DNA from: Gallionellales bacterium CG03_land_8_20_14_0_80_55_15
GTDB taxonomy: Bacteria; Pseudomonadota; Gammaproteobacteria; Burkholderiales; Gallionellaceae
DNA: 17,706 nt
NCBI GenBank assembly: GCA_002780675.1
Contig: PEUR01000129.1
Span: 1 to 17,706 of the forward strand
Direction: 5' to 3'
Shown: positions 5,375-14,922 of the stretch, one piece after another
Position numbering within the stretch: the stretch's first letter is position 1
How the letters are laid out: every line of letters begins with the position of its first letter
Program-made: the position numbers and the translations under genes
Notes under the pieces: model-generated
What the model was told of the DNA's origin: nothing
Database searches by the model: none
The model's input: only the letters and a program-made list of their open reading frames with translations

Positions 5375-6199
5375 TCAGTCCGTAGCCGGCAAACAAAGTG
5401 TGTATTGGCCGGAATTCTGGTCACGCACCACCATGAGCAGTTTTTGCCGCTGCGCCTCTTCGACCAAGTCCTTGAACGAGCGGTAGCCGTAATAGGATTC
5501 GGTGAATCCGGGTTTGCGGCGCTGCATGGTGGTCTTGACCATAGAACCCCATATTTTTTCGTCTGAACCCCGTTCCACAACCAATGCCTCGACAGTTTCT
5601 ACAATAAAATCAAGCGCTTCCTGACGCTTATCCGCTTCGCTCCTAGCGGCTGACGGCTTGACCTTGCTGGTTGCAGCTTTTCTGGGCGTTTGCCTTTCGG
5701 CGCGTTTTTGTTTCGCTTCCTGTTCGCGCACCAGATCGTCATAAAAAATGAATTCGTCGCAGTTTGCGCTCAACAGATTCGCGGTCGAATCCTTCACACC
5801 GATGCCGATGACGTACTTGTTGTTCTCGCGCAGCTTGGAGACCAGCGGTGAAAAATCAGAATCTCCGCTGATAATGACGAAGGTATCCACATGTGCCTTG
5901 GTGTAGCAGAGATCGAGCGCATCCACCACCATGCGGATGTCGGCAGAATTCTTGCCGCTTTGCCGCACATGGGGAATTTCAATCAGCTCAAAAGCGGCCT
6001 CGTGCATGGTCGCCTTGAATTCCTTGTAGCGATCCCAGTCGCAATAAGCCTTTTTGACCACAATACTGCCTTTGAGCAGCAAGCGTTCCAGCACTTTCTT
6101 GATGTCGAACTGCGCATACTTGGCATCGCGCACACCCAGCGCCACGTTCTCGAAGTCGCAAAACAAGGCCATGTTGGTAATTTCAGGTTGGGCTGCCAT
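5375..6199 (-). CDS. NYN (PIN-like) predicted RNase with C-terminal LOTUS/OST-HTH domain
   Basis: This is a predicted metal-dependent RNase of the LabA/DUF88 NYN family joined to an RNA-binding LOTUS domain. In the 274-residue product the NYN domain spans about 8-155 with acidic motifs FCDFEN (Asp15), SADIRMVVDALD (Asp87, Asp93) and ISGDSDFSPLV (Asp113, Asp115). These are the expected catalytic aspartates. A Lys/Arg/Ala-rich linker (about 158-190) leads to a LOTUS domain (about 192-272; GYRSFKDLVEEAQ and a QYTLCL end). It starts at ATG 6199 with AAGGAG ten bases upstream and a plausible promoter. It is the first gene of a unit with NfeD and SPFH, four bases separating it from NfeD. The domain calls are secure; RNA target and role are unknown. 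Confidence 0.9.
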   Translation of the reverse strand: MAAQPEITNMALFCDFENVALGVRDAKYAQFDIKKVLERLLLKGSIVVKKAYCDWDRYKEFKATMHEAAFELIEIPHVRQSGKNSADIRMVVDALDLCYTKAHVDTFVIISGDSDFSPLVSKLRENNKYVIGIGVKDSTANLLSANCDEFIFYDDLVREQEAKQKRAERQTPRKAATSKVKPSAARSEADKRQEALDFIVETVEALVVERGSDEKIWGSMVKTTMQRRKPGFTESYYGYRSFKDLVEEAQRQKLLMVVRDQNSGQYTLCLPATD

Positions 6200-6215
6200 T
6201 TATTGTTTGCTCCTT

Positions 6216-6244
6216 GTTATGTGGATTGGCGCAAAACGTGCCAA
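6216..6244 (-). promoter_or_regulatory. Predicted sigma-70 promoter of the NYN-NfeD-SPFH unit
   Basis: The minus strand has TTGGCA (6239-6244, five of six to consensus), 17 bases, then CATAAC (6216-6221, four of six). The predicted start lies just before the AAGGAG of the NYN gene, giving a very short leader. It is prediction by eye only. Confidence 0.4.
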
Positions 6245-6299
6245 CACCACTCTCGATCGAAGCAGGACTTTAACCGAAAAAGTCCCCCTTGGCTGCGAT

Positions 6300-6335
6300 A
6301 AAAACAAAGTACGCAGTATTTATCTGCGTACTTTG
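6300..6335 (-). terminator. Intrinsic terminator of the cytochrome-ferredoxin-NrfD operon
   Basis: On the minus strand, CAAAGTACGCAG and CTGCGTACTTTG form a perfect 12-bp stem with a seven-base loop, followed by a run of five T. It lies 31 bases after the NrfD-like stop and ahead of the NYN promoter, so it separates the two operons. Confidence 0.85.
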
Positions 6336-6366
6336 CTCAACCAACACTCAAGACGTACTGTGAAAT

Positions 6367-7545
6367 TCAGACGACTGCCTTCTTGCCGTCTGCCCAGGGT
6401 GGCAACAATTTTGTTACCAGCCACAGCGTGATGTAAGGGCAGACAGAAATAACGCCAACCACAAATAAACTCTCACGGCCAAAGACTTCCGGGTAAAAGG
6501 TCAGCAGCCCTTTCATGGTCTTGGACAACTCCTGCCCGCCAATCACCACGTTCCAGCGCATGGCCAACACACCGACCATGATGGCCAAGCCACACAGGAA
6601 TAACCAGTTAACCAGTCGCTTCCCATGCACTTCAAATATCAACAGCCCGGAAGTAACCGCCAGAACAAAAACGGACATGATCCATTGAATCGCCATACCG
6701 ACCCAGATCGGCCCGGCGATCAACGCCTTCACGGTGTCCACCCCCTCGCGCGCCTTATAAAATATTTCCAACAATTCAAGGGCTTCGATCACCATCACGA
6801 TGGTGATCCCCGCAAACAAGACATATAACAAACCGCGCATGGTTTCGTCAATTATCGGTGTCTTGCGGAACTTGGAGACGATCACATACAACACGATCAA
6901 AAGCCCGACCCCTGAAGCGACCGCAGACAACAGAAAAATGACGGGCATCAGATCGGACGACCACCATTCACGCGTTTTCAGCGAGCCAAATACGAAACCG
7001 ACGTAGCCGTGCAAACCCATCGCACTGGGTATGCCGATCATGGACAGGATGCGTGCAAATTTATGGTCAATCGCCAGTGCGTGCGGCGAGACATCATCCG
7101 AGCCCAGGGTAAGCACGCCATAAACTTTCCCCATAATGCCGGTTTTAACCTTGGACATCGCGACAATATCGGCGCGGAACGCGAACCAGGTTTCCAGCAA
7201 CAACAGGCACAGGTAAAACCCGGCAACGTAACCGAACGCTGCCATCGCCGAAGTCCAGTGTGGCGTGATGACCGCATTGAACGCACGGGTAGGCTGCCCC
7301 AAGTGGAATAGCAACGGCGTTGGTGCAAAAATCATGAAGCACAGCGCGGTCAGCAAGGCAAACCTGGAGACAGGCGCAAAGCTCTTGATGTTAAACACAT
7401 GATACAGACTGGAAATAACAAACGCCCCCGCCACCAATCCGGTGATATAGGGATAGATTACGATGAGCTGACTCCACGGCACATCAGTTTCGTTTGGATA
7501 AACGTAACCGATGTAAGGGGTAACGTGGTCGAATACGTGTTCCAT
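6367..7545 (-). CDS. NrfD/PsrC-type polytopic quinone-interacting membrane subunit
   Basis: This is an integral membrane subunit of the NrfD/PsrC (polysulfide reductase) family, which exchanges electrons between quinone/quinol and a periplasmic iron-sulfur partner. The 392-residue protein has about eight to ten hydrophobic helices spread over its length. N-terminal features include PWSQLIVIYPYITGLVAGAFVISSLYH and PLLFHLGQP, the latter resembling the conserved loop near the quinone site. It starts at ATG 7545, overlapping the ferredoxin stop as TGATG, with a near-perfect AAGGAGG seven bases upstream; GTG at 7548 is a less likely start. It is the last gene of a three-gene operon with the hexaheme cytochrome and the ferredoxin. 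No molybdopterin or nitrite-reductase catalytic gene is nearby, so substrate cannot be inferred from the neighbourhood. Confidence 0.92.
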   Translation of the reverse strand: MEHVFDHVTPYIGYVYPNETDVPWSQLIVIYPYITGLVAGAFVISSLYHVFNIKSFAPVSRFALLTALCFMIFAPTPLLFHLGQPTRAFNAVITPHWTSAMAAFGYVAGFYLCLLLLETWFAFRADIVAMSKVKTGIMGKVYGVLTLGSDDVSPHALAIDHKFARILSMIGIPSAMGLHGYVGFVFGSLKTREWWSSDLMPVIFLLSAVASGVGLLIVLYVIVSKFRKTPIIDETMRGLLYVLFAGITIVMVIEALELLEIFYKAREGVDTVKALIAGPIWVGMAIQWIMSVFVLAVTSGLLIFEVHGKRLVNWLFLCGLAIMVGVLAMRWNVVIGGQELSKTMKGLLTFYPEVFGRESLFVVGVISVCPYITLWLVTKLLPPWADGKKAVV

Positions 7546-8435
7546 CACACCACCTCCTTATCAGTTCCCTTATAAAACACATTAGGGGCATTGCCCATTT
7601 CCGGCTTCAGCACTTGCACATGGTTATTGCGGATAAACAGGCTTACCGGGCTTTCCGGGTCATTACGATCACCAAAAATTCGTGTGCCGGTCGGGCATAC
7701 TTCGACACAGGCGGGATTGAGTCCTTTAGTGATGCGGTGGTAACACCAATTACATTTATCAACCGTCCCCCTCGATTCATTGAAGCTACGCGCGCCGTAA
7801 GGACAAGCCTGTACGCAATACTGGCAACCGATACAGTAAGTCGTATCAATCAGCACCGGACCATCCTTAGCCTTAAATGTAGCACCCGTCGGACACACCT
7901 GGACGCAAGACGGATGCTCGCATTGGTTGCACAGCTTGGGTACAAAGAACGCCTTGTCCACCTTGACATTTCTATAGCGGTTATCAAAACGAAATTTGGT
8001 TTCCGAGCCGGTATTCTCAATATTTTTCGGATCGGACTGGCTGTCAACGATAGCGGTATTGGAGCCTTCCAGATAAACATAACGCTCGACCCAGGTACGA
8101 TGGTGGTTGGCATCCATCTGCACACTGTTTTCCATCTTACACGCCTCCATGCAACGCAGACAGCCGATACAACGATCGGTATCAACCCCTATTGCCCATT
8201 TATGATCGTTCCAGTTGTAATCAGGCACTTGGGGCGGATTATTGACCGCCTCGGCGTATTGTTCATCATTTTGTTGAAACGCGCGGTTACCTCTTTCAGA
8301 TACGACGGCTCCCACTGCACCACCCGCACCGACCAACGCTCCCGCGCACGCCACACCTTTACCCAGGAATCCCAGGAAATTCCGGCGTGACATCACAGCC
8401 CTATCCTGTTCCACTTGCGTATCTGGAGTCGTCAT
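7545..8435 (-). CDS. Tat-exported four-cluster [4Fe-4S] ferredoxin (NrfC/PsrB/DsrO-like)
   Basis: This is a periplasmic iron-sulfur electron-transfer subunit. A Tat motif SRRNFLGFLG (16-25) and hydrophobic Ala/Gly segment precede four cysteine sets for [4Fe-4S] clusters: Cys89/92/95/99, Cys169/172/177/181, Cys201/204/207/211 and Cys228/231/243/247. This pattern is that of NrfC, PsrB and DsrO, which link an NrfD-type membrane subunit to a partner protein. Two starts are plausible. ATG 8435 has a GAGGG site five bases away and is used here (296 residues). ATG 8462 overlaps the cytochrome stop as ATGA and would add nine residues. The 3' end overlaps the NrfD start as TGATG, so strong translational coupling is expected. 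The physiological partner is probably the hexaheme cytochrome encoded upstream. Confidence 0.93.
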   Translation of the reverse strand: MTTPDTQVEQDRAVMSRRNFLGFLGKGVACAGALVGAGGAVGAVVSERGNRAFQQNDEQYAEAVNNPPQVPDYNWNDHKWAIGVDTDRCIGCLRCMEACKMENSVQMDANHHRTWVERYVYLEGSNTAIVDSQSDPKNIENTGSETKFRFDNRYRNVKVDKAFFVPKLCNQCEHPSCVQVCPTGATFKAKDGPVLIDTTYCIGCQYCVQACPYGARSFNESRGTVDKCNWCYHRITKGLNPACVEVCPTGTRIFGDRNDPESPVSLFIRNNHVQVLKPEMGNAPNVFYKGTDKEVV

Positions 8436-8458
8436 TTTTCCCTCACTCGATAATTTAT

Positions 8459-9586
8459 TCATTTGCAACTCACGCTGGCGTAATAAGCCGACAAGTTCTC
8501 TATATCCAATGGGCTGAGCGTTTTCGCCACGCTCGTCATCACCGCATGGGTGCGGCTGCCATCCCGGTACGCCTTGAGTGTATTGGAAAGATATTCAGCA
8601 TTTTGCCCCGCCAGATTCGGCCATGCCGATGAGCCGCTGATGCCCACAGAGCCTTTACCATAAAGCCCGCCGGCACTGTGGCAAGCGGCACAATTGGCCG
8701 CCTTGGCTTTGCCCAGTTCTGCCTTGGCCTGGTCGCCGCCGGTGACAACACAACGGGTGCTGGCAAAATAGGCCGCCACATTGCGCATATCTAACTCGCT
8801 CAAGCCTTCCGCCAGGGGAGTCATCATGTCATTTTGGCGTACGCCCGATTTAAACGTCTTCAGCGTATCAACCAAATAGTTGGCGTGTTGCCCCGCCAGG
8901 TTCGGCCATGCCGGGTTGGCGCTCGTCCCCGCCTCCCCGTGGCAGCCAACACAGGCAGCGGCGACGGCTTTACCCGCCTTGGCATCTCCCCGCAGGCTGG
9001 GCGGCAGATTAGCGAAAACGATCCGGGGTGAGTGCGGGTTGTGGCATTGGGTGCAAAGCTCATCACCACTATGAGTAGCAACGTCAATCTGACGCTGTTC
9101 AGTAGGTCGTCCGGCCAGCTTTTCGTGACAATTGAGGCAGATTCCGCGCATATCTTGCGGCTTCAACAGCAAATTTCTACCCGGTACGTTGGCGGGATGA
9201 ACTTTATGTTCATGGTGGGTAATCGAGTTGACTTTATCCTCAATGGACAGCGGCATTGCCTGTTTGGACGGGTGGTTTCCTGCCGGACCGGTATGACAAA
9301 CCTCGCAACCGGGGCCGTATTTATAGACAACGCCCTGAATGGCATCATTTCGGGTCGCCTTGCGGTGGATGCCGGCAGTCCAAACCTCATACTCTTTCTT
9401 GTGACATAACAAACAGGATGCAGAACCCTGAAGTTTCGGCACTTTGGAAGCGATCTCCGCTACCGCCGCACCACGGTAATGACCGTACTGATAAAACGAA
9501 TCCGGTATTAAAAATGTCCTGACCGAAAATGCAATTAAAGCAACCACCACGATTAAGGCCAACAAACGAGCTATGTGTTTAGGCAT
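8459..9586 (-). CDS. Hexaheme cytochrome c: tetraheme domain fused to cytochrome c4-like diheme domain
   Basis: This is a membrane-anchored or exported periplasmic multiheme cytochrome. The 375-residue protein has an N-terminal hydrophobic helix (about 7-27; signal or anchor) and six CxxCH sites: CLLCH 58-62, CEVCH 94-98, CLNCH 150-154, CTQCH 178-182, CVGCH 212-216 and CAACH 299-303. The first four, with extra histidines (HHEHKVH at 124-130), resemble tetraheme/DmsE- or NrfB-type electron carriers. The last two head tandem cytochrome c4-like units sharing AWPNLAGQ.A.YL and a likely axial Met (about 254/255 and 350). It starts at ATG 9586 with GGAGGG upstream; the longer frame from 9649 runs into the promoter. 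It is first in the operon and the ferredoxin follows by overlap. Heme count is certain; the electron partner is not known. Confidence 0.93.
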   Translation of the reverse strand: MPKHIARLLALIVVVALIAFSVRTFLIPDSFYQYGHYRGAAVAEIASKVPKLQGSASCLLCHKKEYEVWTAGIHRKATRNDAIQGVVYKYGPGCEVCHTGPAGNHPSKQAMPLSIEDKVNSITHHEHKVHPANVPGRNLLLKPQDMRGICLNCHEKLAGRPTEQRQIDVATHSGDELCTQCHNPHSPRIVFANLPPSLRGDAKAGKAVAAACVGCHGEAGTSANPAWPNLAGQHANYLVDTLKTFKSGVRQNDMMTPLAEGLSELDMRNVAAYFASTRCVVTGGDQAKAELGKAKAANCAACHSAGGLYGKGSVGISGSSAWPNLAGQNAEYLSNTLKAYRDGSRTHAVMTSVAKTLSPLDIENLSAYYASVSCK

Positions 9587-9635
9587 GATCCCTCCATAAT
9601 TTTTCCAGTCGGATAGACCAGAACAACTATCGGGC

Positions 9636-9641
9636 ATCATG
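9636..9641 (-). promoter_or_regulatory. -10 element of the cytochrome operon promoter
   Basis: CATGAT on the minus strand matches TATAAT in four of six positions and lies 21 bases after the FNR box, the spacing expected of a class II FNR-activated promoter. Predicted start of transcription is near 9629, about 43 bases before the cytochrome ATG. Confidence 0.45.
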
Positions 9642-9662
9642 CCCATCAATTGATTTGCGTCA

Positions 9663-9676
9663 TTGATTTATATCAA
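9663..9676 (-). promoter_or_regulatory. FNR/Anr-type binding site
   Basis: TTGATTTATATCAA matches the FNR/Anr consensus TTGAT-N4-ATCAA at every fixed position. Its centre lies about 41 bases upstream of the predicted transcription start of the hexaheme cytochrome operon, so activation under low oxygen is the natural prediction. An additional palindrome ATCAATTGAT sits at 9645-9654. Between here and the flavoenzyme stop at 9862 I see no gene. Confidence 0.75.
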
Positions 9677-9861
9677 TTGCGGACAGTTTATCGTGAGCGG
9701 AGACAAGGTGCTGAATACCCCTTTGCCTGGCTGAATTTTGCGGACAATCCGGCCTTGCTGTGGGAACGGCTGCGCCTTCCTGCAAGACCGCCGGTCACCT
9801 GCTTTTTTCACATAGCGCCGTACCTTTTCGCCAGGGATTATTCGGCATGATCAGCCGCGTG

Positions 9862-11265
9862 TCATATCACCTTGCCCGGATTCATCAGCCCTTGCGGGTC
9901 GAGCGCCTGCTTGATGGTGCGCATTAACTCCAGTTCAAGCGGGGCTTTGTAATCCTTGATCGCCTCGCGCTTGAGTTGTCCCAGTCCATGCTCGGCGCTG
10001 ATAGTGCCGCCCAATCGCGCCACCACTTCATAAACGATGCGGTTCACCTGATGCTCTTGCTGTTCGATAAAGACCAGGTTTTCCGAAACTTCTGGCATCG
10101 AGGCGTTGTAATGAATATTGCCGTCGCCCATATGGCCAAACGCAACGATACGTACGCCTGCAAATCTACCACGCAATGCCGCACTGGCCTGGGTGATAAA
10201 TTCCGCCGCACGACTGACTGGCACGGCGACATCATGCTTGATGCTGATACCCTCACGCTTTTGCGCCTCGCTGATATTTTTGCGCAGCTTCCACCACTTT
10301 TCGGCCTTCTGCACATCATTTGCAATGTCGAACGTCAATACTTCGCCGCCGAAATTAAGCAGCCCGTTACGCAACATGGCTTCGGGCGAATGTTGCAACA
10401 CGTCGTCAACCTTGATCAGCAGATACCAGTCATACTTGCGCTTGAAAGGTTCTTGCGTGTCTTCTATGTGTTTGAAAACCAGATCCAGGCAATTGCGTGA
10501 AATGATTTCAAAGCCACTCAACGCCTGACCGCAGGTTGCACGGATATTGGAAAGCAAACGCACCGCCACTTCGGGACTGGCAATCGCCACACAAGCTGTA
10601 GCGGTCGCTTGCGGACGCGGAAAAAGTTTCAACACGGCTGCGGTAATAATGCCCAGCGTACCTTCTGCACCGATGAACAACTGCTTCAAATCATAGCCGG
10701 TGTTGTCCTTACGCAAGCTGCGCAGCCCGTTCCAGATACGCCCGTCAGGCAACACCACTTCCAGCCCCAATACCAAATCGCGCGCGCTGCCGTAACGCAA
10801 CACGCCGATGCCGCCCGCATTGGTGGAAAGATTGCCGCCGATCTCACAATGCGGCGCGATCGCCGTCAGCCCTAGGGGAAACAGGCGATTAGCCTGCTCG
10901 GCGGCATCATAAAGACTGGCCAACTTACAGCCCGCCTCGACCGTCAAGGTATAGTTAATCGCATCCATCGCACGTATCTGATTCATGAGCGACAGATTAA
11001 GCACGATCTGCCTGCCCTCTGGTAGCGGCACAGAAGCGCCGCACAAACTGGTGTTGCCCCCCTGCGGCACGATGGCGATTTGCTGCGCCGCGCACAATTT
11101 GACAATATCCGAGACTTGCTGCGTGTTGGCAGGAAATACGACGGCAATCGCCTCGCCAGAATAGCGACCGCGCCAATCCTTAAAGTAGGGCAGCGCAGCC
11201 AACCCTGTCAGCAGCGCCTCACTGCCGACAATGGCGCTTGCTGCCGGAATAAAATCAGTATGCAT
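9862..11265 (-). CDS. FAD-linked D-2-hydroxyacid dehydrogenase, GlcD/D2HGDH-like
   Basis: This is a vanillyl-alcohol-oxidase-fold flavoenzyme that probably oxidises a D-2-hydroxy acid (glycolate, D-lactate or D-2-hydroxyglutarate) to the keto acid. The 467-residue protein has the FAD-binding PP loop VPQGGNTSLCG (66-76), CEIGGNLSTNAGGIGVLRYG (140-159), KDNTGYDLKQLFIGAEGTLGIIT (186-208), the metal-site motif GHMGDGNIH, SAEHGLGQLKR and the ending DPQGLMNPGKVI. Length fits GlcD or D2HGDH. It starts at ATG 11265, directly abutting the TAA of the preceding membrane cytochrome gene. No GlcE or GlcF gene is next to it, so its electron acceptor is not the usual glycolate-oxidase partner; the adjacent membrane heme protein is a candidate. 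Fold and flavin are certain, the substrate is not. Confidence 0.9.
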   Translation of the reverse strand: MHTDFIPAASAIVGSEALLTGLAALPYFKDWRGRYSGEAIAVVFPANTQQVSDIVKLCAAQQIAIVPQGGNTSLCGASVPLPEGRQIVLNLSLMNQIRAMDAINYTLTVEAGCKLASLYDAAEQANRLFPLGLTAIAPHCEIGGNLSTNAGGIGVLRYGSARDLVLGLEVVLPDGRIWNGLRSLRKDNTGYDLKQLFIGAEGTLGIITAAVLKLFPRPQATATACVAIASPEVAVRLLSNIRATCGQALSGFEIISRNCLDLVFKHIEDTQEPFKRKYDWYLLIKVDDVLQHSPEAMLRNGLLNFGGEVLTFDIANDVQKAEKWWKLRKNISEAQKREGISIKHDVAVPVSRAAEFITQASAALRGRFAGVRIVAFGHMGDGNIHYNASMPEVSENLVFIEQQEHQVNRIVYEVVARLGGTISAEHGLGQLKREAIKDYKAPLELELMRTIKQALDPQGLMNPGKVI

Positions 11266-12009
11266 TTAACGTAGCGGTCTTTTTAATGTCCATATCTGAA
11301 ACAACGAAATTAGAATCTGCAAGGCCATGGACATACCCAGTAATCCACCTGCCACAATGACGATGATGGCGTAGTTTGAATCCATTTTTGTCATAAACCA
11401 GGAGGCGACATCAACGAACACTGCAAGCATCGGTGAAACCACCAGAAATCGTTTAAAGATAACGTTAACTTCTGATTGTATAAAGATACCGCCCAGCATG
11501 AAGAGCAACAGACTAATACCAAATAAGTGAATATGCGATAGCTTCAATAAACTGGCCATAGACATGCCGGTATCCACTTCCGCAAATTTATGAAGACCGG
11601 CGTAAGTGCTGAAATCCGGCAAATTCATGCCGGAACTTTGCACGTGGCAATTCAGACAGGTTTTTTGCAGGATAGGTTTGATCTCATGTTCAAAATGATC
11701 TTCTCCCGCACCATCTTTGAGCCAGGCGACCATCAAATCACGGTCTTCAATGCTGATATTCCCCGCCATTGAGCCACGTATCGCCGCTTCAAGCCGGGTA
11801 CCGCTACGATTGCCGTAATAGCTGTCAGCCACATCGCTGATTGAAAGCCCAGGCTTTCCATCGTTCATTTGATGAGTGACATACAAATAAGAGGTAGCCA
11901 TCAAATAGCCCAGCCCAACCAGCAACAAGAAACAGGTGTACAAGAGCTTCTCGCTAATCGTGCGATCATAAAAACGTTTTGGAACGATGTGTCCTTCAGG
12001 TGCGACCAT
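11266..12009 (-). CDS. Four-helix membrane protein with one c-type heme site
   Basis: I do not recognise a named family. The 247-residue product has a basic N-terminus, a first membrane helix (about 22-42), a periplasmic region of about 100 residues with a single CLNCH heme c motif (near residue 118), then three helices. The second begins SHIHLFGISLLLF, with two histidines that could bind a heme or face a quinone site. The remaining two are around VSPMLAVFVDVASWF and YAIIVIVAGGLLGMSMALQI. The start at ATG 12009 is preferred (an AGGG site about nine bases away) over GTG 12036, which would lie two bases from priA. It follows priA and abuts the flavoenzyme. It looks like a membrane electron-transfer protein; the CxxCH and helices are direct, the role is inferred. 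Confidence 0.8.
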   Translation of the reverse strand: MVAPEGHIVPKRFYDRTISEKLLYTCFLLLVGLGYLMATSYLYVTHQMNDGKPGLSISDVADSYYGNRSGTRLEAAIRGSMAGNISIEDRDLMVAWLKDGAGEDHFEHEIKPILQKTCLNCHVQSSGMNLPDFSTYAGLHKFAEVDTGMSMASLLKLSHIHLFGISLLLFMLGGIFIQSEVNVIFKRFLVVSPMLAVFVDVASWFMTKMDSNYAIIVIVAGGLLGMSMALQILISLFQIWTLKRPLR

Positions 12010-12037
12010 GATAACTTGCCCTAAAAATGGCAACACT

Positions 12038-14245
12038 CTAAAACTCTAGCGGGTCAATGTCCAGTGAACAGCGCAATTTTTGGGCAGGTATATTATTCAG
12101 CGAAGGTTGCCAGGCATGTAAAAATTGCTGTAATTCGCTGCGACTACCCGACTGAACCAGCAGTTGTGCGCGCACATAATTGGCTCGACGCGCAAGAGAT
12201 GCAGGAACTACGCCGAGGATTTCCACTGCTCTATTCAAGCCGACTGCGGCAACACGCGCCTGATTGAGATAAGCGTAAACCTCAGTCTCTTCCTTACTCT
12301 CAGCACGCAGCATGGCCTGATAGACGAAGGGCGGGAAACCGGCCAGTTGCCGCTCGGCGAGTTGTGTCGCCGCCCACCCCGCAAAATCATGATTCTGCAA
12401 ACACAAAAACAGCGGGTGATCGGGAAAGGCTGTTTGTATCAGTACCTCACCCGGTTTCTCAGCACGCCCCGCACGTCCTGCCACTTGCATCAACTGCGCG
12501 AAGAGTTTCTCGCCCGCTCGAAAATCCGCACTGTACAAGGCGCTATCGGGATTCAACACCCCGACCAGAGTCAGTGCGGGGAAATCATGGCCTTTCGCCA
12601 GCATCTGCGTGCCGACCAGAATATCTACCTCGTGTGCCTGTATCTGCTCACGCATGATTTTCCAGGCGCGCTTGTTGCGCGTACTGTCGCTATCCACACG
12701 CAAGATGCGCGCATCGGGAAAGCGTTCCCGCAATGCGCTTTCTATCCGCTGCGTCCCGCTCCCGACTGGCTGCAAATCGGCATGGCCACAGCCGGGACAA
12801 GCGCGAGGCAGCCGCACTTGATAGCCGCAAAGATGACAGCGCAAGCGCTTATCCTTGAGGTGCAACACCATTTTCCCGGCGCAGTTCTTGCAATCTGATA
12901 ACCAGCCGCATTCCGTACACATCAACACCGGCGCATAACCCCGCCGGTTGATAAACAGCAGGCTTTGTTCGCCGCGCTGGATTCGTAGCCCGATTTCACG
13001 CAGCAATTTTTCGCTGATACCTTCAAACATCTGCGTTTGCTTGGTATTGATGCAACTGATGGTGGGCAGACTGGCAGCCGCCAGCGCACGTTCGGTCAGC
13101 TTGAGTAAACGGTAACGACCATTCTGCGCATTAAAATAAGTCTCCAGCGAAGGCGTTGCCGAACCCAACACAATGGGAACAGCACATTGTTTGGCGCGGA
13201 AAATAGCCACATCGCGCGCCGAATAGCGCAATCCCTCTTGCTGCTTGTAGGAAGTGTCGTGTTCCTCATCCACCAAAATAAGTGCCAGTCTGGGCAATTC
13301 GGTGAATACCGACAAGCGCGTGCCGAGCACGATCTGCGCCGCACCCGATTGTGCTTGCTGCCAATTATGTAATCGCTGGTTTTCCGACAGACCGCTGTGC
13401 AGGCTCACCAGATCCGCATCAGGAAAACGATTGCGAAAATAGCCTTCAAGTTGCGGAGTGAGATTGATTTCGGGAACCAACAGCAGCACCTGCCCTGCCC
13501 GTTGCAACATCTGGTGCATGAGATGCACATACACTTCCGTCTTGCCGCTGCCAGTCACGCCCTGCAGCAGGAAGCACGCGTAACCCCGCGCGCGCACGAC
13601 GCTGTCCACTGCCAGTTGTTGTTCGGCGGTCAAAGTGTGCGCATTCGCGAAAGTATGAGCGACGACCGCCCCTCCCATGGGAAGGCCTGGGGAGGAAATA
13701 TGAGCTTCGCACGACTCGACCCAGCCTTGCTCCAGCAGCCATTTCAGTTGCGTGGCCGCTGTTGCTGAAATGGCTTTCAATTGCTGCAGATTACACGTCT
13801 GCGCGGCCAATTTTTCGAGAATACGCAGCGCAATCACTTTGCGTTTCGGTAAAGACGCTATAGCGGGGGGGCAGCCAGCCAGCCGATAGTGCAAAATCGG
13901 CTTAATCGTGATCGGCTTATCCGCACGAAGCCGCGTCGGTAATGCAGTAAATACCGCTTGCCCGATGGGATAGTGATAATAATTGCTGCAAAATTTCAAC
14001 AACGACAGAAATCGGGCTGACAGCAGCGCACTGCCCGATAAAACCTGCAACACAGGCTTGATGCGCGTAGCGGAAAGGGGAGATTCAGCGACGCGCTCCA
14101 TCACCACGCCAACCTTTTTCCTGGTACCAAATGGCACGAGTACACGCTGCCCAGGCACAACAGATTCATCCGCCGAGTAATCAAACAGGGTGGCTAATGG
14201 AACATCAAGGGCGACGCGAACAATGGGCTTTATGGGTGGATTCAT
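12038..14245 (-). CDS. priA: Primosomal replication restart helicase PriA
   Basis: PriA is the 3'-to-5' superfamily 2 helicase that recognises stalled forks and reloads the replisome. The 735-residue protein has an N-terminal 3'-DNA-binding region (RVALDVPLATLFDY, PGQRVLVPFG), a winged-helix part, Walker A GVTGSGKTE (229-237), the DEEH box (326-329), GSATPSLET (361-369), and the eight-cysteine zinc-binding insert (Cys443, 446, 452, 455, 470, 473, 483, 486). Helicase motifs V and VI follow (GTQMLAKGHDFP, QVAGRAGR), and a C-terminal domain ends LDIDPLEF. Length matches the family. The ATG at 14245 overlaps the stop of the upstream Abi-like gene as TGATG. Downstream genes are the membrane heme protein and the flavoenzyme, so it lies in the middle of an unusual transcript. 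Confidence 0.97.
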   Translation of the reverse strand: MNPPIKPIVRVALDVPLATLFDYSADESVVPGQRVLVPFGTRKKVGVVMERVAESPLSATRIKPVLQVLSGSALLSARFLSLLKFCSNYYHYPIGQAVFTALPTRLRADKPITIKPILHYRLAGCPPAIASLPKRKVIALRILEKLAAQTCNLQQLKAISATAATQLKWLLEQGWVESCEAHISSPGLPMGGAVVAHTFANAHTLTAEQQLAVDSVVRARGYACFLLQGVTGSGKTEVYVHLMHQMLQRAGQVLLLVPEINLTPQLEGYFRNRFPDADLVSLHSGLSENQRLHNWQQAQSGAAQIVLGTRLSVFTELPRLALILVDEEHDTSYKQQEGLRYSARDVAIFRAKQCAVPIVLGSATPSLETYFNAQNGRYRLLKLTERALAAASLPTISCINTKQTQMFEGISEKLLREIGLRIQRGEQSLLFINRRGYAPVLMCTECGWLSDCKNCAGKMVLHLKDKRLRCHLCGYQVRLPRACPGCGHADLQPVGSGTQRIESALRERFPDARILRVDSDSTRNKRAWKIMREQIQAHEVDILVGTQMLAKGHDFPALTLVGVLNPDSALYSADFRAGEKLFAQLMQVAGRAGRAEKPGEVLIQTAFPDHPLFLCLQNHDFAGWAATQLAERQLAGFPPFVYQAMLRAESKEETEVYAYLNQARVAAVGLNRAVEILGVVPASLARRANYVRAQLLVQSGSRSELQQFLHAWQPSLNNIPAQKLRCSLDIDPLEF

Positions 14246-14922
14246 CACGCTATCGTTTGTGAGATCGACAATAGCGGTGCGCCCTGCTCACCCGCGCTGT
14301 GAATAGCAGAGAACCGATCTACCGATGCCAGAACGGTTGCCATATCAACATTGAGCCATGTTAAAAATTCGACCGCCTCGGCATGTTGAACTGTCAAATC
14401 GTGCCAATGCCAAATAAGCTCATAGTGAAATACGCGGTTGCGTAGCAAGCGTAAGCGGTTCAATCGACGCGAGAGGGTTTTGCGCTGGCGCTCGTGACGC
14501 GGTGCATGGGGGAGTGTCTTGCCCGCAAGCCAAGGCCATAATCTTTGGCCGTATTCGTAACGCACATCAAATAAGCTGCACCAAAAACCGAAGCTCATTT
14601 CCGCCACCACAGCGCCCGGCGCAACCGGCTTCCGATTTCGCTTGAGCAGATTAACGGCATCTTGAATCGACTGCGCTTCGCGTTGATCAAAAGGAAATGT
14701 GGCGTACCAATCTTCATGTCCCGTATGCTGCCACAGTGCAGAATGCAAAGTATTTCGGAGCGTTACTTCCAGCAAGTTGAGCACGGGATAAAGCGCTTCA
14801 CATAGCTGGATATTCCAAAGATAACGCTGCAAAATATGTTCCGCCGATTCGCTACGGCCAGTACGCCGGTATCCAGTCAAACGATCCGCTGACAGCGCGC
14901 CAACGAGGGACTTTAACTCCAT
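14245..14922 (-). CDS. Abi_2-like HEPN protein (abortive infection family)
   Basis: This resembles the AbiD/AbiF (Abi_2) family, HEPN-fold proteins linked with abortive phage infection and thought to act as RNases. The 225-residue product has the family-like core YLWNIQLCEALYPVLNLLEVTLRN (residues 34-57), a middle FGFWCSLFDVRYEYGQRLWP, and RLRLLRNRVFHYELIW, holding an R-x4-H HEPN motif (Arg161, His166). It starts at ATG 14922 with GGAG eight bases upstream. Its stop overlaps the priA ATG (TGATG), so the two are translationally linked. That arrangement is unusual for a defence gene and could mean it responds to replication state, or simply that it inserted in frame with an existing transcript. 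The HEPN motif is visible; RNase activity and defence role are family inference. Confidence 0.75.
   Translation of the reverse strand: MELKSLVGALSADRLTGYRRTGRSESAEHILQRYLWNIQLCEALYPVLNLLEVTLRNTLHSALWQHTGHEDWYATFPFDQREAQSIQDAVNLLKRNRKPVAPGAVVAEMSFGFWCSLFDVRYEYGQRLWPWLAGKTLPHAPRHERQRKTLSRRLNRLRLLRNRVFHYELIWHWHDLTVQHAEAVEFLTWLNVDMATVLASVDRFSAIHSAGEQGAPLLSISQTIA

Follow-up and report, generated by a model that had tools for sequence, protein, structure and literature searches.

Proposed electron transfer without an enzyme

How electrons pass between periplasmic cytochromes and the quinone pool of iron oxidizers is unsettled, and the published schemes, as far as the consulted parts describe them, use bc1, alternative complex III (ACIII), CymA/ImoA and Irc proteins. 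Can an operon encoding a multiheme cytochrome, an iron-sulfur protein and an NrfD-type membrane subunit, with no catalytic gene, fill this step? The question is raised by a 17,706-nt stretch (the window), which is contig 26 (PEUR01000129.1) of Gallionellales bacterium CG03_land_8_20_14_0_80_55_15, a 1.61-Mb, 222-contig, 81%-complete metagenome-assembled genome (MAG) of the Gallionellaceae. Its minus strand carries at 9586-6367 a three-gene operon (the module) encoding a hexaheme cytochrome, a ferredoxin and NrfD, with an FNR box of perfect consensus on one side and a strong terminator on the other:

9663..9676, minus strand, FNR box TTGATATAAATCAA, perfect consensus
9641-9636, minus strand, CATGAT, 21 nt 3' of the FNR box
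8459..9586, minus strand, hexaheme cytochrome c, probably membrane-anchored, with c7-type tetraheme and cytochrome c4-like diheme parts (Pfam, PDB match, alignment)
7545..8462, minus strand, ferredoxin of the NrfC/PsrB/DsrO type with twin-arginine signal and four Fe4S4 motifs (Pfam, alignment)
6367..7545, minus strand, NrfD-type membrane subunit (PF03916) of its own clade (Pfam, tree, residues)
6306..6334, minus strand, intrinsic terminator, core stem-loop followed by a T-rich tail (fold energy)

The three products would form a single membrane complex that faces the periplasm and acts as a minimal quinol:cytochrome c (c4) oxidoreductase. Electrons would run via the four Fe4S4 clusters into the tetraheme part, and from there into the tethered c4-like part of high potential, which would hand them on to carriers in the periplasm and to cbb3 oxidase. 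In lineages carrying the box, FNR would switch the operon on at low oxygen. Such a complex would work like ACIII minus its molybdopterin-type subunit, ActD and ActF, and would coexist here with bc1 and ACIII. The operon is real and conserved, and quinone:cytochrome c oxidoreductase function is likely; leaving direction aside, we hold this function with good confidence. The forward direction, from quinol to cytochrome c, is an even call, and the full proposal, including FNR induction in part of the lineage, is likewise evenly balanced. It is based on the conservation of the triplet in varied neighborhoods and the separate NrfD clade; on quinone-site residues that align with those of HybB and E. 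coli NrfD, together with an Arg gate; on the c4 match, the invariant M255 and M350, and the genome's own CcoN and FNR; and on the monoheme cytochromes downstream of clade-1 modules and the restriction of clade-2 modules to genomes without an ActC match. From these features we infer complex formation, the partner (cbb3 oxidase or a soluble cytochrome), electron direction and energy coupling. The original prediction was that the module may be a general quinone-periplasm electron bridge; the bridge role is kept and can be made more specific, as an oxidoreductase of the quinone:cytochrome c4 type that stands beside bc1 and ACIII.

Operon structure and subunits

The overlapping or nearly abutting minus-strand trio, FNR-like promoter and intrinsic terminator that had been predicted are all present. 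The genes overlap by ATGA at the cytochrome/ferredoxin junction and TGATG at the ferredoxin/NrfD junction. The terminator, which a simple terminator scanner missed and folding recovered, has an 11-bp core stem at 6334-6306; its fold comprises 15 pairs, with an energy of -22.9 kcal/mol and a z of -5.5. We take the 21-nt distance between the FNR box and CATGAT to be the usual spacing for class II FNR promoters.

Six CXXCH motifs were found in the cytochrome as predicted, with a corrected start: this is most likely ATG at 9586 (MPKHI...), not TTG at 9649, because GGAGG lies 4 nt before the ATG and a membrane-anchor-type segment begins there in 22 aligned homologues. Four of the motifs lie in the c7/doubled-CXXCH part and two in the c4-like part, and Pfam likewise assigned a c7/doubled-CXXCH region and two class-I cytochrome c stretches. 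The nearest PDB match of the C-terminal part is cytochrome c4 (E 4e-25), whose matched sequence occurs in PDB entry 8snh together with a cbb3 subunit. H74, H172, H185, M255 and M350 are invariant in 22/22 homologues, a pattern that would fit bis-His ligation of the hemes in the first part and His/Met ligation in the c4 part, M255 and M350 being candidate Met ligands of the c4 hemes.

The ferredoxin has Pfam Fer4 domains, and the 16 Cys of its four cluster motifs and its RR pair are invariant in 22 homologues. Its Tyr 215 sits between two cluster Cys, as does Y113 of QrcC according to the consulted part of PMC13059093. The third subunit belongs to NrfD by score (PF03916, 128.6 bits; cut-off, 25.8) and by residues, with H81 and S99 18 positions apart and an Arg gate. 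Y31, H81, S99 and R330 are invariant across 20 aligned NrfDs; the first three align with D58, D109 and S129 of HybB and with Y21, H74 and S92 of E. coli NrfD, and R330 aligns with the Arg gate. The roles of the quinone-site and gate residues are those given in the consulted parts of PMC13059093 and PMC8076601, the former also showing the same 18-residue spacing in QrcD (D120-S138). PDB sequence searches found no NrfD homologue, and a PF14589 (NrfD_2) probe, which matched nothing, controls included, was uninformative.

Distribution and gene neighborhoods

A strong NrfD orthologue was found in 24 of the 150 sampled family genomes, source genome included. Thirteen orthologues (82-100% identity) make up clade 1 and 11 (about 70-74%) clade 2, in which that of G305 is frameshifted. 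Five loci with named relatives of the window's NrfD (81-86% identity) all belong to MAGs: one each of Gallionella sp., Ca. Gallionella acididurans and an uncultured Nitrosomonadales, and two labeled "Proteobacteria". At the order level, a full-length hexaheme homologue occurred in one (G103) of 299 other genomes; the whole-protein query was swamped by c4 cytochromes, with 275 of 300 order genomes matched. At the class level, an NrfD match of E ≤ 1e-30 occurred in 4 of 368 other genomes, G103 not being among the matches of that sample. The triplet keeps its order in 23 of the 24 family loci and in G103, within varied neighborhoods, and all 24 readable cytochromes, 23 from the family and the one of G103, carry six CXXCH; at the 24th family locus (G374) the contig begins inside the ferredoxin gene. 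The NrfD gene of L079 is frameshifted, and that of L076, dropped by the open reading frame (ORF) filter, was intact in the NrfD search.

The absence of a catalytic gene from the operon, noted before for the window, extends to all 24 Gallionellaceae loci and G103. When the 455 ORFs of 29 loci, 25 with the module plus 4 others, were compared by BLAST with 22 catalytic references, the set (molybdoenzymes, NrfA, HybC, HybO, DsrK, DsrL and flavocytochrome c sulfide dehydrogenase) gave two matches in module loci, narG of G324, the sole molybdopterin-type match, and a glutamate synthase small subunit in L076. Among ten further neighbors analyzed by Pfam, no respiratory reductase was found; NnrS (G316) and a TonB receptor were among them, and one had no match. 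The only reductase found near a module in these loci is thus narGHI in G324, a single case, where L063:2-6869 holds narGHI and a molybdopterin adenylyltransferase gene upstream of the module. An NnrS gene lies downstream of the G316 module (L078:6895-8073), and these two neighborhoods hint that the module may be linked to nitrogen oxides in individual lineages.

A small monoheme cytochrome c (clusters c5 and c6) is encoded downstream in 9 of the 13 clade-1 loci and in 0 of the 11 clade-2 loci, three of which (L072, L075 and L077) end at most 0.6 kb past NrfD; none lies downstream of the module in the source window. Beyond the family, relatives have ferredoxin and NrfD together with a 4-heme (G739), 3-heme (G685) or 4-heme cytochrome (G606, from another order, with a c5-type cytochrome 1.7 kb downstream), or, in the distant relative G635, with a c4-like diheme cytochrome. 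The cytochromes thus vary, and the core of the module is therefore ferredoxin-NrfD, with an exchangeable cytochrome part. In L031:1-9265 the G103 module is followed by genes for two tetraheme class-I cytochromes and for two 9-heme proteins whose C-terminal parts show a weak b561-like match below the cut-off.

FNR sites

The FNR-type site is perfect in the window, where TTGATATAAATCAA at 9676-9663 is the only zero-mismatch site, and is kept in part of the set. Five of the seven perfect boxes in the 24 loci (392 kb) lie at most 250 nt before the cytochrome gene (binomial P about 2e-8), and 5 of the 24 loci have one at most 250 nt upstream of the ATG. Sites with at most one mismatch lie at -90 to -117 in seven loci; three further such matches (L031, L060 and L062) are at other positions, those of L060 and the near-identical L062 falling inside a receiver gene. 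Ten loci with at most one mismatch were observed, versus a mean of 0.27 (maximum, 3) in mononucleotide-shuffled upstream regions. Two-mismatch sites were found at -81 to -98 in four more loci. The source genome encodes a bona fide FNR (252 bits; cut-off, 228) with CX2CX5C and the fourth Cys, and FNR may induce the operon in part of the lineage. Receiver-domain genes lie directly upstream at L059, L060 and L065, two of them with a PAS histidine kinase and a LuxR-type regulator, which indicates that regulation varies among lineages.

NrfD phylogeny and comparison with known complexes

The 42-row NrfD tree, which lacks QrcD, PsrC, CbcU and NhcC, contains 23 module rows (22 of the 24 family loci and G103; L076 and L079 were omitted). 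These rows and G739, G685, G606 and G635 form one group (support, 100/100), apart from five DsrP sequences of dsr loci, the source genome's ActC and ActF, E. coli NrfD and HybB, three NrfDs linked to molybdoenzymes and that of a second triplet from the Gallionellaceae. An NrfD inside a well-characterized clade, its known enzyme being encoded elsewhere, had been named as evidence against the original prediction; the module falls outside the sampled NrfD, DsrP and ActC clades, PsrC and QrcD being absent from the comparison. Long branches were flagged by the tree program, among them that of a haloarchaeal row adjoining the module rows, which leaves it uncertain how the groups are related. The dsr loci were recognized from synteny and gene length. 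In one of them (G360) DsrK was confirmed by its model, at 585 bits (cut-off, 400); in G324 the DsrJ score was 61 (cut-off, 100).

The premise that such modules normally travel with a terminal enzyme was wrong, because enzyme-free cytochrome/FeS/NrfD complexes are known, NhcABCD and Geobacter CbcSTU and CbcVWX being described without one in the consulted parts of PMC8076601 and PMC11434368. Geobacter Cbc4 (CbcSTU) also combines a c-type cytochrome, an Fe-S protein and a membrane subunit without a catalytic subunit, and is proposed to be a menaquinol:ferricytochrome c oxidoreductase; it and Cbc3 (CbcVWX) belong to another lineage, and the consulted description mentions no c4-like part (PMC11434368). 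NhcABCD likewise has a cytochrome, an FeS protein and the NrfD-like NhcC without a catalytic subunit, but differs in the extra NhcD, nine hemes and the TpIc3:quinone direction (PMC8076601, in part). Shewanella SirCD is described as an FeS and NrfD quinol dehydrogenase serving several pathways (PMC11434368, in part), whereas the module brings its own multiheme cytochrome. ACIII shares a multiheme c, an FeS part and the NrfD-type ActC, and many module loci add a downstream monoheme cytochrome; however, ActB1, ActD and ActF are absent from the operon, its NrfD lies outside the ActC clade, and the source genome encodes a full ACIII separately. ACIII-like clusters are described in PMC10732223, and SAR324, in which an ActC-type NrfD has been proposed to stand in for complex III, offers a precedent (PMC4782131), both as consulted in part.

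Enzyme-free cytochrome/FeS/NrfD complexes are thus already known; new are the tetraheme-c4 fusion, the separate NrfD clade and the host group. No description of the module was found in the consulted parts of the open-licence literature on NrfD in Gallionella/Sideroxydans, Gallionellaceae, iron-oxidizing bacteria or tetraheme/c4 cytochromes, and "NrfD" is missing from the main text of the CL21, Gallionellaceae pangenome and iron-oxidizer comparative papers. The pangenome table, as consulted in part, lists an unassigned 4Fe-4S ferredoxin cluster in 41 genomes that could in principle be the module ferredoxin. The module would be an NrfD complex with c4 fused into it, possibly oxygen-regulated, and offers a candidate for the cytochrome-quinone step that can be tested directly.

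Coexisting complexes and alternative explanations

On contig 198 of the source genome, bc1 and ActA-F lie side by side, the ACIII gene names being those we take to follow from gene order and domains, and the genome has CcoN of cbb3 (629 bits; cut-off, 583). Among the 150 family genomes, ActC was matched in 81 and cytochrome c1 in 119; of the 11 with neither, 5 carry clade-2 modules. No clade-2 genome (0/11) has an ActC match (Fisher, 1.2e-4, a test that, like those below, ignores phylogeny and MAG gaps). Of the 24 module genomes, the set covered by the cytochrome b check, G312, G318 and G431 gave no cytochrome b match, G431 having ActC; G381 and G436 lack a c1 match and have other cytochrome b genes, and G440 has a sub-cut-off piece. 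The idea that clade-2 genomes have no complex III at all is thereby weakened and holds for G312 and G318 only. In these two (99% and 85% complete), the module is the sole one of module, bc1 and ACIII found by the searches. The module is a likely third alternative to respiratory complex III, perhaps switched on at low oxygen. More tentatively, and somewhat less likely than not, it is a further, independently evolved complex III analogue, NrfD-based with its own tethered cytochrome c4 and exchanged with bc1 and ACIII among iron oxidizers.

Several observations weigh against the proposal. Thirteen of the 24 loci lack an FNR site with at most two mismatches at -81 to -117. Since the source genome already has bc1 and ACIII, the need for the module is not evident. 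ActC occurs with clade 1 in 11 of 13 genomes (Fisher, 0.022), the opposite of clade 2, whose exclusion of ActC may partly reflect phylogeny, and module and ActC overall show no association (P 0.50). The narGHI cluster of G324 stands ~2 kb upstream, separated from the module by two genes on the opposite strand. In G635 (L095:2319-6209), ferredoxin, NrfD and the c4-like cytochrome are followed by the flavoprotein of flavocytochrome c sulfide dehydrogenase (PF09242, 87 bits; cut-off, 26); the cluster may encode an NrfD-linked sulfide dehydrogenase. Finally, NrfD-type complexes can run the opposite way, as in Qrc.

These last points bear on reverse use of the same complex, in which Fe(II)- or sulfur-derived electrons from periplasmic cytochromes would enter through the c4 part and reach quinone, with reverse flow to NADH. 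The host family is known for Fe(II) oxidation (PMC10734462), the CycA1 of Acidithiobacillus, a c4, has been suggested to supply a bc1 that runs uphill (PMC2754497) and Qrc works from cytochrome to quinone (PMC13059093), according to the consulted parts of these papers, and G635 couples ferredoxin-NrfD-c4 with a sulfide dehydrogenase flavoprotein. However, low-oxygen activation by FNR would suit the forward direction better, and Qrc-type wiring would hinder uphill quinone reduction; we consider reverse use somewhat unlikely.

Another reading, improbable in our view, is that the complex passes electrons from quinol, under anaerobic conditions, to an acceptor in the periplasm or outside the cell (nitrogen oxides or Fe(III)), a use that has been suggested for Geobacter CbcSTU and Shewanella SirCD. 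The FNR box and protein, narGHI and NnrS near the G324 and G316 modules and the 9-heme and tetraheme proteins after the G103 operon would suit it, but no other ORF with at least three CXXCH occurs in the Gallionellaceae module loci and the c4 exit suggests a high-potential acceptor. In addition, NarI, the quinol-oxidizing subunit of narGHI itself, presumably serves as its own quinol dehydrogenase.

It is very improbable that the module serves a known enzyme (Nrf, Dsr, Psr or Ttr) as its electron-transfer part, with the catalytic gene at another site, although the ferredoxin reaches 186 bits on the DsrO model (cut-off, 200) and the MAG is incomplete, since six module genomes have separate dsr loci with their own DsrO/DsrP, the NrfD tree places the module apart, and the source genome's three molybdopterin-domain proteins are ActB1, a cytoplasmic formate dehydrogenase-like protein (by inspection) and an unassigned 786-aa protein. 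The module shares the cytochrome-ferredoxin-NrfD order of DsrJOP, and its ferredoxin is 35% identical to DsrO of G312, but its NrfD matches G312 DsrP at E 0.11, it has six hemes versus three, and the operon lacks DsrM/DsrK, of which no DsrK match was found among module-locus ORFs. The NrfD scores 53 bits on DsrP (cut-off, 350), a cut-off useless as a test because NrfDs of dsr loci here also reach only about 50-60 bits, so the tree carries the weight against DsrP. Against the curated NrfD model of NrfABCD it scores 36.7 bits (cut-off, 347.6), and NrfA was not matched in module loci, a genome-wide NrfA search not having been made. The QrcB-type molybdopterin subunit is absent from the operon, and the loci screen gave only the G324 NarG.

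Other features

The priA/FAD-oxidase/NYN region (window 5375-14248; L073; L117; L118; L082) varies between genomes: it contains the module, in either of two arrangements, or bc1, or else a second triplet of the ferredoxin-NrfD-tri/tetraheme kind. This gives the impression that quinone:cytochrome c complexes are exchanged there. A functional tie to the upstream FAD-oxidase gene was set aside as synteny (priA, c7, FAD oxidase, NYN region). Short NrfD remnants alone occur in L080 (G356:C22:2913-3035), between priA and the FAD-oxidase gene, a site that holds the module in other genomes, and in L083 (G413:C121:51903-52022), and are signs of module loss. Window positions 11266-12036 encode a membrane protein that has a single CXXCH and matches no Pfam model; it occurs in four of the loci compared and in L118, sometimes beside the FAD-oxidase gene. 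Near the contig end, 16397-17047 is an integrase-core (rve, sub-cut-off) and helix-turn-helix ORF, likely a transposase fragment.

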